Assembly: GCF_964340395.1 (NCBI RefSeq) | Contig: NC_135552.1 | Coordinates: forward strand, 27,810,181 to 27,874,180 | From: Glandiceps talaboti | Lineage: Eukaryota > Hemichordata > Enteropneusta > Spengelidae | Length of the DNA: 64,000 nt | Reading direction: 5' to 3' | Shown here: positions 36,601 to 42,600 of the stretch, piece by piece | Position numbering within the stretch: position 1 is the stretch's first letter | Layout: the number at the start of each line of letters is the position of its first letter | Position numbers and translations under genes: made by a program | The notes under the pieces: generated by a model | Told to the model about the DNA's origin: nothing | What the model saw: the letters and a program-made list of their open reading frames with translations, nothing else | Databases searched by the model: none

Positions 36601-39600
36601 TATTGCTAGGCGATACGGCCAGTATACCGGCCTTTCGGATATAGAGTCAAACTCCAATAGGCCGGTATACCGGCCTTTAGGGTTCAAAGGGTTAAGTTTT
36701 TTTGTAAACATCGATCTTTTGACGTCGCCCCTAAATACACACTGAGTTGATAATAACTTACTTTGGTAGTTGTGCCTGTGGATCTGCTAAGTCTAATACA
36801 GGTACACTTCCTAATATCTTCTCTAAATGCAAATCATGTAGTTGATTTCGTAAGTCATGTACTTGTTGACTTAACACAACTGGTGACTTATCGGCCTTTG
36901 ACTCCTGTTTAGCTTTAGACTGGGAACATACAAATAAACATGAATAAGTATGAGATTATCCAAGTATGAGATTATCTATGGATGAGATTATCCATGTATG
37001 AGATTATCCAATTATGAGATTATCCAATTATGAGATTATCTATGGATGAGATTATCCACGTATGAGATTATCCAAGGATGAGATTATCCAATTATGAGAT
37101 TATCCAATTATGAGATTATCCAAGGATGAGATTATCCAATTATGAGATTATCCAATTATGAGATTATCCACATGAGATTATCCATGTATGAGATTATCCA
37201 AGGATGAGATTATCCAATCCATGTATGAGATTATTCAAGTATTAGATTATCCATGTATGAGATTATCAAAGTATGAGATTATCCATGTATGAGATTATTC
37301 ATGTATGAGATTATCCATGTATGAGATTATCCATGTATGAGATTATCCATGTATGAGATTATCCACATATGAGATTATCCAAGTATGACATTATCCACAT
37401 GAGATTATCCACATATGAGATTATCCAAGTATGAGATTATCCTGTATTCTAAAGGTGACTCTAGACATGCCAGTCAACATATCTGAACTATACAAGTCGT
37501 TTTGTATGATACGCTTGTGAAAATTCAACTAAAAGTACAGGTTTACTTCACTTTCAGTAGTAGTCAAATAGCAGTCAATTTTATCATGACTGTATGTGAG
37601 TACCAAAATATTCTGAGTAACTATCACTTTGAGCTGTGCCCACTTTTTATCAAAGACAAAAAAGATTCTCATGGTGAAGTGAATAGAGATGGTCAAGTCT
37701 AGCATACATCCTACGGAATTCTGAATCATTTACCTGTATTTTGTCAACATCTTCTGCTAACTAGAGAATTCTGAATCATTTACCTGTATTTTGTCAACAT
37801 CTTCTGCTAACTAGAGAATTCTGAATCATTTACCTGTATTTTGTCATCTTCTGCTAACTACAGAATTCTAAATCATTTACCTGTATTTTGTCAACATCTT
37901 CTGCTAACTAGGGAATTCAGAATCATTTACCTGTATTTTGTCAACATCTACTGCTAACTAGAGAATTCTGAATCATTTACCTGTATTTTGTCAACATCTT
38001 CTGCTAACTAGAGAATTCTAAATCATTTACCTGTATTTTGTCAACATCTACTGCTAACTAGAGAATTCTGAATCATTTACCTGTATTTTGTCAACATCTT
38101 CTGCTAACTACAGAATTCTGAATCATTTACCTGTATTTTGTCAACATCTATTCCTAACTAGGGAATTCTGAATCATTTACCTGTATTTTGTCAACATCTT
38201 CTGCTAACTACAGAATTCTGAATCATTTACCTGTATTTTGTCAACATCTACTGCTAACTAGGGAATTCTAAATCATTTACCTGTATTTTGTCAACATCTA
38301 CTGCTAACTAGAGAATTCTAAATCATTTACCTGTATTTTGTCAACATCTTCTGCTAACTAGAGAATTCTAAATCATTTACCTGTATTTTGTCAACATCTT
38401 CTGCTAACTAGGGAATTCTGAATCATTTACCTGTATTTTGTCAACATCTTCTCCTAACTAGGGAATTCTAAATCATTTACCTGTATTTTATCAACATCTT
38501 CTGCTAACTAGGGAATTCTAAATCATTTACCTGTATTTTGTCAACATCTTCTGCTAACTACAGAATTCAGAATCATTTACCTGTATTTTGTCAACATCTT
38601 CTGCTAACTAGGGAATTCTGAATCATTTACCTGTATTTTGTCAACGTCTTCTGCTAACTAGAGAATTCTAAATCATTTACCTGTATTTTATCAACATCTT
38701 CTGCTAACTAGGGAATTCTAAATCATTTACCTGTATTTTGTCAACATCTTCTCCTAACTAGGGAATTCTAAATCATTTACCTGTATTTTATCAACATCTT
38801 CTGCTAACTAGGGAATTCTAAATCATTTACCTGTATTTTGTCAACATCTTCTGCTAACTACAGAATTCAGAATCATTTACCTGTATTTTGTCAACATCTT
38901 CTGCTAACTAGGGAATTCTGAATCATTTACCTGTATTTTGTCAACGTCTTCTGCTAACTAGAGAATTCTAAATCATTTACCTGTATTTTATCAACATCTT
39001 CTGCTAACTAGGGAATTCTAAATCATTTACCTGTATTTTGTCAACATCTTCTCCTAACTAGGGAATTCTAAATCATTTACCTGTATTTTGTCAACATCTT
39101 CTGCTAACTACAGAATTCTGAATCATTTACCTGTATTTTGTCAACATCTTCTGCTAACTAGAGAATTCTGAATCATTTACCTGTATTTTGTCAACATCTT
39201 CTGCTAACTAGAGAATTCTGAATCATTTACCTGTATTTTGTCATCTTCTGCTAACTACAGAATTCTAAATCATTTACCTGTATTTTGTCATCTTCTGCTA
39301 ACTAGAGAATTCTAAATCATTTACCTGTATTTTGTCAACATCTTCTGCTAACTAGGGAATTCAGAATCATTTACCTGTATTTTGTCAACATCTACTGCTA
39401 ACTAGAGAATTCTGAATCATTTACCTGTATTTTGTCAACATCTTCTGCTAACTAGAGAATTCTAAATCATTTACCTGTATTTTGTCAACATCTACTGCTA
39501 ACTAGAGAATTCTGAATCATTTACCTGTATTTTGTCAACATCTTCTGCTAACTACAGAATTCTGAATCATTTACCTGTATTTTGTCAACATCTATTCCTA

Positions 39601-42600
39601 ACTAGGGAATTCTGAATCATTTACCTGTATTTTGTCAACATCTTCTGCTAACTACAGAATTCTGAATCATTTACCTGTATTTTGTCAACATCTACTGCTA
39701 ACTAGGGAATTCTAAATCATTTACCTGTATTTTGTCAACATCTACTGCTAACTAGAGAATTCTAAATCATTTACCTGTATTTTGTCAACATCTTCTGCTA
39801 ACTAGAGAATTCTAAATCATTTACCTGTATTTTGTCAACATCTTCTGCTAACTAGGGAATTCTGAATCATTTACCTGTATTTTGTCAACATCTTCTGCTA
39901 ACTAGGGAATTCTGAATCATTTACCTGTATTTTGTCAACATCTTCTCCTAACTAGGGAATTCTAAATCATTTACCTGTATTTTATCAACATCTTCTGCTA
40001 ACTAGGGAATTCTAAATCATTTACCTGTATTTTGTCAACATCTTCTCCTAACTAGGGAATTCTAAATCATTTACCTGTATTTTGTCAACATCTTCTGCTA
40101 ACTAGAGAATTCTAAATCATTTACCTGTATTTTGTCAACATCTTCTGCTAACTAGGGAATTCTGAATCATTTACCTGTATTTTGTCAACATCTACTGCTA
40201 ACTAGGGAATTCTAAATCATTTACCTGTATTTTGTCAACATCTACTGCTAACTACAGAATTCTGAATCATTTACCTGTATTTTGTCAACATCTTCTTCTA
40301 ACTAGGGAATTCTGAATCATTTACCTGTATTTTGTCAATATCTTCTTCTAACTAGGGAATTCTGAATCATTTACCTGTATTTTGTCAACATCTTCTGCTA
40401 ACTAGGAAATTCTAAATCATTTACCTGTATTTTGTCAACATCTTCTGCTAACTAGGAAATTCTAAATCATTTACCTGTATTTTGTCAAAATCTTCTGCTA
40501 ACTAGAGAATTCTAAATCATTTACCTGTATTTTGTCAACATCTTCTGCTAACTACAGAATTCTAAATCATTTACCTGTATTTTGTCAACATCTTCTGCTA
40601 ACTAGGGAATTCTAAATCATTTACCTGTATTTTGTCAACATCTACTGCTAACTAGGGAATTCTAAATCATTTACCTGTATTTTGTCAACATCTTCTGCTA
40701 ACTACAGAATTCTAAATCATTTACCTGTATTTTGTCAACATCTTCTGCTAACTAGTGAATTCTAAATCATTTACCTGTATTTTGTCAACATCTTCTGCTA
40801 ACTAGGGAATTCTAAATCATTTACCTGTATTTTGTCAACATCTTCTGCTAACTTGGGAATTCAGAATCATTTATCTGTATTTTGTCAACATCTTCTGCTA
40901 ACTAGAGAATTCTAAATCATTTACCTGTATTTTGTCAACATCTTCTGCTAACTAGTGAATTCTAAATCATTTACCTGTATTTTGTCAACATCTTCTGCTA
41001 ACTAGGGAATTCTAAATCATTTACCTGTATTTTGTCAACATCTACTGCTAACTAGGGAATTCTGAATCATTTACCTGTATTTTGTCAACATCTTCTGCTA
41101 ACTAGGGAATTCTGAATCATTTACCTGTATTTTGTCAACATCTTCTGCTAACTAGAGAATTCTAAATCATTTACCTGTATTTTGTCAACATCTTCTGCTA
41201 ACTAGGGAATTCTAAATCATTTACCTGTATTTTGTCAACATCTTCTGCTAACTTGGGAATTCAGAATCATTTATCTGTATTTTGTCAACATCTTCTGCTA
41301 ACTAGAGAATTCTAAATCATTTACCTGTATTTTGTCAACATCTTCTGCTAACTCTCTGATTTCATGCTGAAGTCTCTGGTATCTCTGCATTGGTGTTTCA
41401 ATGACACCACAACCCTCCCCAACCTAAGAGAGATAAACATGGAAAGATGTATGGATAATTACACTAAGAAAGTATGTGTTATGGTGAAAGCAGACCTACT
41501 ATTTACTTTATCATCTGTGTGTCCTGCATAAACCATTTCTCAATGTTCTACTATTACTCATTCACTAAATAAGTATAATGAATGGAATCAGGTCACTGCA
41601 GTTCAAAAATGTAAAATTAAAGTCAAGAAAATTATAATTCCAAAAAACTTTGTTCCAGCAAATGGTCTTCCTACAAGTCTATGACGTCAAAAGCCTGGTC
41701 ATCAAGTAATCACACACAGCAGTTGATAACTCCAAAAACTTTGTTCCAGATTGCTTTCAAGCAAATGGTCTTCCTACAAGTTTTTGCCCAGAAATCAAGT
41801 AATCACACATAGCAGTTGAGATTACACTAGTTGAATATTTTAAACTGGGGGTCATTATTTCTGTGAACTGTTGAAAATATTGATGCCACAAAACAATGTA
41901 AAGGTGAAAGAATTGTAGAAATATGAAATGTTTCCAGGTTTGCAATCAAGTGTGGCGAAAATATCAAAGAAATTTATACTTGAGAACTTGATGACACTAG
42001 ACAACTAACAAGTCACGGATTTCAAAATCATTGCATATGCTTCAGTGTGTAGATTCTGAATTTGCTCTTACAGCACTTTCAAACTCACCATTTCATATTC
42101 AGTCTTGGTGCTGTCATAGCCAGTTTTTCTGTTTGCCCCAATACGATCAGAGAAGTCTACAGAAACAAAAGTACTTAATCAGTAAAAGAGGTATGGGTAC
42201 AGTATGAATCTGTGGACAGAAACTATATATATCTATCATGTTTTATGAAAATCAGTCTTTTAACTAACAACCTGTCACTTTCCTGAACATTGCATGAAGC
42301 TATTGTATAGTGCATATTTTCTAACCATTTTATCCAAACAAGTCAGGAAATTATTAAATCATTTCAAAGGAAAACAATTTAGTGTAATTTTCTGCTCATA
42401 AAAATATTGCTGTGGCGTATGAAGTTAAAATACTTCAAAAGTATTCAAATGTCTTTGCTATGAAAAGTGCACAGTATTAGAAGAAGCACTCACCTAGGCT
42501 ACTGGCATCGAGTGATTTTCCTTTAAATCTTGAGTATGCCGAGTCTGGATTCACAACTATTCTCTCCACACTTTCACTAGTAAGTTCATCCTAGGAGTAA

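Follow-up and report, generated by a model that had tools for sequence, protein, structure and literature searches.

The original description of amphioxus mirages is said to be that of Canestro in 2002, and a 1995 paper by Turri reportedly concerns, by its title, a minisatellite with multiple splice donors in human IFI6. In the excerpts of two reports on which we draw, mirages are tandemly duplicated exon-intron boundaries, which occur in amphioxus at Adh3, the globins BflGb6 and BflGb9, troponin C and PGBD5 and reportedly leave regular splicing undisturbed (PMC3087553, PMC3902484). Human IFI6 (6-16, G1P3) carries a minisatellite at the edge of an exon that repeats a splice donor, and two downstream units serve as donors, which results in three mRNA species according to part of one report (PMC4526556). 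In human segmental duplications, internal tandem repeats lie at exon-intron boundaries; they average four units of 30 bp and can create new introns, according to part of one report (PMC2812944). Intron gain by tandem genomic duplication over a splice signal (the Rogers model; potato RdRp) is reportedly the subject of another paper (PMC4974935). In the open-licence literature that we searched, no hemichordate case of such arrays was found.

The window analyzed here is the whole stretch of 64,000 nucleotides from the acorn worm Glandiceps talaboti (Hemichordata, Spengelidae). A prior interpretation of these letters, the sequence-only reading, had assigned the gene that concerns us to DCTN2 (dynactin subunit 2, or dynamitin), and its minus-strand translation is indeed identical over 402/402 residues to Glandiceps talaboti dynactin subunit 2-like isoform X2 (P0001). 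The coding span (15525-47272) comprises 13 coding exons for 402 aa, including an in-frame 39-nt exon of isoform X2 that was located through P0001 (33692-33730, minus strand). All introns are GT-AG, exon pieces match the Pfam family Dynamitin (PF04912), and the next relatives among the matches listed are Ptychodera flava (73%) and, after it, Saccoglossus kowalevskii (68%). Exon 5 (41325-41423, minus strand; 99 nt, phase 0/0) is the fifth coding exon and is followed by the array, as that reading had it; the exon ends in LAEDVDKIQ with the donor CAG/GTAAAT, where the slash marks the exon-intron boundary, and lies between introns of 665 and 4405 nt, with exon 6 (36762-36919, minus strand) on the acceptor side of intron 5. 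Exon 11 (18475-18577, minus strand; 103 nt) ends in DLHQQ with the donor AAG/GTAAGA and lies between introns of 13748 and 2213 nt, with exon 12 (16170-16261, minus strand) on the acceptor side of intron 11. When the lengths of the arrays are subtracted, intron 5 measures 791 nt and intron 11 measures 747 nt.

DCTN2 (ATG at 47272) lies head-to-head with exon 1 of a KIF5-like kinesin heavy chain (47237-47969, plus strand, ATG at 47846; tblastn 8.5e-8 with a KIF5 probe), and the two start codons are 573 nt apart. Human DCTN2 and KIF5A are also neighbors in opposite orientation, which would mean an old conserved synteny. Exons of ribosomal protein L27e (Pfam PF01777 and KOW) were observed at 7678-9523 on the plus strand.

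Using TRF and unit alignment, we detected a single array of exon-5-end/donor units (array 1) at 37711-41353 on the minus strand (3.64 kb; period 50, 73.0 copies, score 6327). This result agrees with the roughly 73 copies of a 50-bp unit that had been counted previously, except that three units measure 47 nt and that the array begins at 37711 (the span formerly given was 37715..41423). Read in the sense of the gene, array 1 has 73 donor positions in this one assembly, the real donor among them, and these are separated by 72 intervals (69 of 50 nt and three of 47 nt). The donor is AAAATACAG/GTAAATGA in 71/73 positions and AAAATACAG/ATAAATGA in 2/73, with the real one counted; two donors are broken, although an intact CAG/GTAAAT had been ascribed to each copy. 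The last 27 nt of the exon, also claimed for each copy, are exact in 40/72 units and altered in the rest, and GAATTC (an EcoRI site) is present in 70/72 units and missing from two, although it had been reported for each. Aligning the units, a check that had been proposed, yielded a mean pairwise identity of 95.0% over 72 units, which removes chance as an issue for array 1, and revealed 25 distinct unit types in a non-periodic order. The final 29 nt are identical between exon 5 and the first unit and are also the stretch by which the TRF array overlaps the exon; beyond them the two sequences diverge, which upholds the claim of an exact boundary. Because AG, two of the 29 shared nt, stands on both sides of the array junction, 27 nt is an equally fair figure. 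The exonic part changes in the manner of drifting non-coding DNA; among the 69 units of 50 nt, 6/8 kinds of change within it are nonsynonymous. As had been stated, reading from exon 5 into the intron meets an in-frame stop, which we found after eight codons and which makes a longer protein impossible by exon extension. The sequence-only reading of an array derived from the exon and its donor is thus supported; it mentioned neither the array at exon 11 nor the precedents in amphioxus and human IFI6.

DCTN2 has a further array of this type at exon 11 (array 2), which consists of exon-11-end/donor units and was located by the same approach at 17009-18521 on the minus strand. It has 31 donor positions in this one assembly, again with the real donor among them, separated by 30 intervals (25 of 49 nt, three of 55 nt and two of 36 nt), and AACAAG/GTAA is kept in 31/31 positions, real one counted. 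The unit aligns with exon 11 over 47/49 positions, the first unit has three mismatches, and the TRF array overlaps the exon by 47 nt; the GT is the only clearly intronic part of the unit, with AA on both sides. In both arrays, the terminal stretch of a coding exon is linked in each unit to the opening nucleotides of the intron that follows, the array starts inside the exon and extends into the intron, and the donor is kept in nearly every copy.

Like the amphioxus mirages, as described in parts of the reports cited above, both DCTN2 arrays have tandem units that span an exon-intron boundary, abut the boundary that is their source, as the overlaps with exons 5 and 11 indicate, and carry splice signals in their units (GTAAAT in array 1, GTAA in array 2). 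They differ from those mirages in their hemichordate host and in the presence of two donor arrays in one gene. The 73 and 31 donor positions compare with 3 and 6 units in the two haplotypes of amphioxus BflGb6, and the unit lengths of 50 and 49 nt compare with 10-72 and 150-160 bp in amphioxus, in the portions of the reports used here. DCTN2 resembles IFI6 in the repetition of a donor at an exon edge, whereas IFI6 uses downstream units and extension of DCTN2 exon 5 runs into a stop. Minisatellite expansion at exon edges is shared with the human segmental-duplication repeats, but the length of the annotated DCTN2 isoform is unaffected. The splice signal is duplicated as in intron gain by tandem duplication, yet in DCTN2 existing introns were enlarged and none is new; the protein and its homologues align through both exon ends and reveal no new coding split of a former exon. 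Structures of this kind are known; new relative to the literature found are the phylum, the copy number, the pair of arrays within a single gene and a possible exchange between array and coding exon.

We consider it probable that the DCTN2 arrays are mirage-type minisatellites that began at 5' splice sites, as by-products of duplication that are tolerated through exon definition and whose extra donors have no role. Homologues align through the ends of exons 5 and 11, and because the ends of the hemichordate exons can be aligned independently of the arrays, we conclude that the exons are old, that the arrays are derived and that the exon is the source. When 51 TRF rows were merged by hand into 27 tandem-repeat loci and these were placed at random, 61% of trials had at least two loci overlapping a DCTN2 exon; positional overlap is therefore unremarkable, and the case rests on shared sequence. 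A search of the window with the other 11 DCTN2 exons and their flanks, exon 1 of KIF5 and three stretches of RPL27 brought up no other exon-derived array; the sole extra matches were an ACTC run close to exon 9 and two 14-nt flank matches within the 16-bp array that lies near exon 6.

Each array would have started when a short stretch spanning the donor was duplicated in tandem. At the junction, the two flanks share AG in array 1 and AA in array 2, and matches of two bases are common by chance. Growth may then have occurred by exchange or slippage, at times of several units at once. In array 1, a run of 11 units recurs with an offset of 29 units and a run of 7 units with an offset of 6, and 9/78 pairs of sites display all four gametes, which indicates that variants were reshuffled within units; in array 2, the corresponding number is 2/21 for the 25 full-length units. 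At exon 11, duplication may even have improved the real donor by placing exon sequence behind GTAA. GTAAG is present in 30/31 donors of array 2, whereas the intron sequence that follows the final copy is GTAAACC. If this edge preserves the old start of intron 11, that start would have been AAG/GTAAAC, a poor donor. With a small matrix from 10-12 donors of this gene, AAG/GTAAAC scores 2.6, as compared to 10.3 for AAG/GTAAGA and 8.3 for AAG/GTAAGG, and the joined copies would be better donors as a result of the exon sequence behind GTAA. Alternatively, GTAAAC at the far edge may represent a last copy that has mutated.

Tolerance of the arrays would depend on how the exons are recognized. Because exons 5 and 11 are approximately 100 nt long and lie between long introns, they are presumably recognized across the exon, in which case the donor nearest the 3' splice site of the exon would win and each new copy would fall into the intron. 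According to part of the report by Carranza and colleagues, minigenes that are spliced by exon definition and contain a pair of identical 5' splice sites use the upstream site exclusively, intron-defined splicing favors the downstream of two 5' splice sites, and weakened sites result in exon skipping in some constructs (PMC9225289). In the annotated protein (isoform X2), exon 5 is connected to exon 6 and exon 11 to exon 12 through the first donors. Based on this protein and by analogy with the published minigenes, use of the first donor is most likely. Most likely the extra donors have no role. Counting against this explanation, the exon-5 donor is the weakest of the 12 DCTN2 donors by a small matrix from this gene, and because some minigene constructs with weakened sites skip the exon, skipping of exon 5 is worth considering; the exon has 33 codons, and its loss would stay in frame. 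RNA structure was also considered as the reason why the first donor wins. In accessibility, the real donor ranks 4/73 in array 1 and 30/31 in array 2, and because these rankings are opposite, local RNA structure fails to explain the choice. Four folded pieces gave z-scores of -1.9 to -2.7 and did not separate real from copied donors.

We also weighed whether the copied donors do something. They could act as a regulatory decoy, in which U1 snRNP bound along the tandem donors adjusts the output of DCTN2, either by diverting part of the transcripts into nonsense-mediated decay (NMD) through the in-frame stop or by keeping U1 on a long intron. The many intact donors of both arrays and the stop that any extension of exon 5 meets are consistent with a decoy, as is a zone from -9 to +10 in array 1, chosen afterwards, in which 1/19 sites vary, as compared to 12/31 elsewhere (p = 0.009). 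However, the core of the donor from -3 to +6 is conserved no more than the rest of the unit (p = 0.41), and multi-unit duplications suffice to keep copies similar. The longest invariant run in array 1 units gave no signal either (p = 0.66). There is no convincing sign that the copied donors are under selection, and we regard a decoy as improbable.

Units of array 1 could alternatively serve as a nursery for exons by supplying cryptic acceptors and donors, which would lead to 27-nt in-frame inserts (LAEDVDKIQ) or, in time, to a new intron, a model that has been proposed for amphioxus globins in part of one report (PMC3087553). Such an insert of 27 nt is in frame at the phase-0 junction, and 56/426 AG sites of array 1 score at least as high as the weakest acceptor of the gene by a 12-acceptor matrix. 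However, that acceptor is itself weak (5.3), 0/188 AG sites of array 2 reach its score, and the annotated isoform X2 lacks such an insert, which together render this outcome very improbable. The least probable reading is that assembly produced the array or its copy number. Long near-identical arrays are hard to assemble, and the draft-genome version of one amphioxus mirage has been called aberrantly assembled, according to an excerpt (PMC3087553), but the 25 unit types in non-periodic order and the larger duplications within array 1 argue for a real array; P0001 also comes from a 29 Mb record.

The sequence of exon 11 bears on whether an array and its exon exchange variants. Near its end (18475-18521), exon 11 encodes Q by CAA at the third position of LHQQ. 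Among the 120 homologues listed of the 855 found, this gene included, 115 have E at the aligned residue, 4 have Q and 1 has N. At that codon, the copies of array 2 have GAA in 21/30 and CAA in 7/30, with the site lost in 2/30, and the seven CAA copies occur on four unit backgrounds. That exon 11 has its Q codon in common with array copies suggests, and does not prove, exon-array exchange. Against free exchange, site -38 is C in exon 11 and T in 25/25 full-length units of array 2. Independent mutation is a possible source of the Q as well, given that the same residue is N in Saccoglossus and Q in Lingula. We tentatively raise a broader reading, which we consider rather unlikely, in which donor-seeded satellites recur in hemichordate genes, are allowed by exon definition and are not silent. 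With the coding exon as the array's outermost copy, conversion would bring array variants into the protein, as in the Q of exon 11, and duplication in array 2 would have built a better real donor.

Two arrays of nearly identical donors in one ordinary gene constitute a natural experiment on the choice of 5' splice sites, for which a rule of proximity across the exon predicts the first donor and a rule across the intron predicts the last. The arrays suggest that short exons with long flanking introns are a habitat for such satellites, and any entry of array variants into the exon would make a repeat within an intron a source of coding change. A mirage-type structure, described in amphioxus and with human parallels, would extend to hemichordates.

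Other repeats lie near exons in the window. A 16-bp tandem array of approximately 31 copies (36946-37442) is located directly upstream of the exon-6 acceptor and showed no exon origin in the search described above, and a complex 55/109-bp array (32511-33144) ends approximately 35 nt upstream of the exon-10 acceptor. The ACTC run (33565-33673) follows the 39-nt exon. Downstream of kinesin exon 1, a 46-bp array of 8.8 copies (50317-50716) showed no match to that exon.
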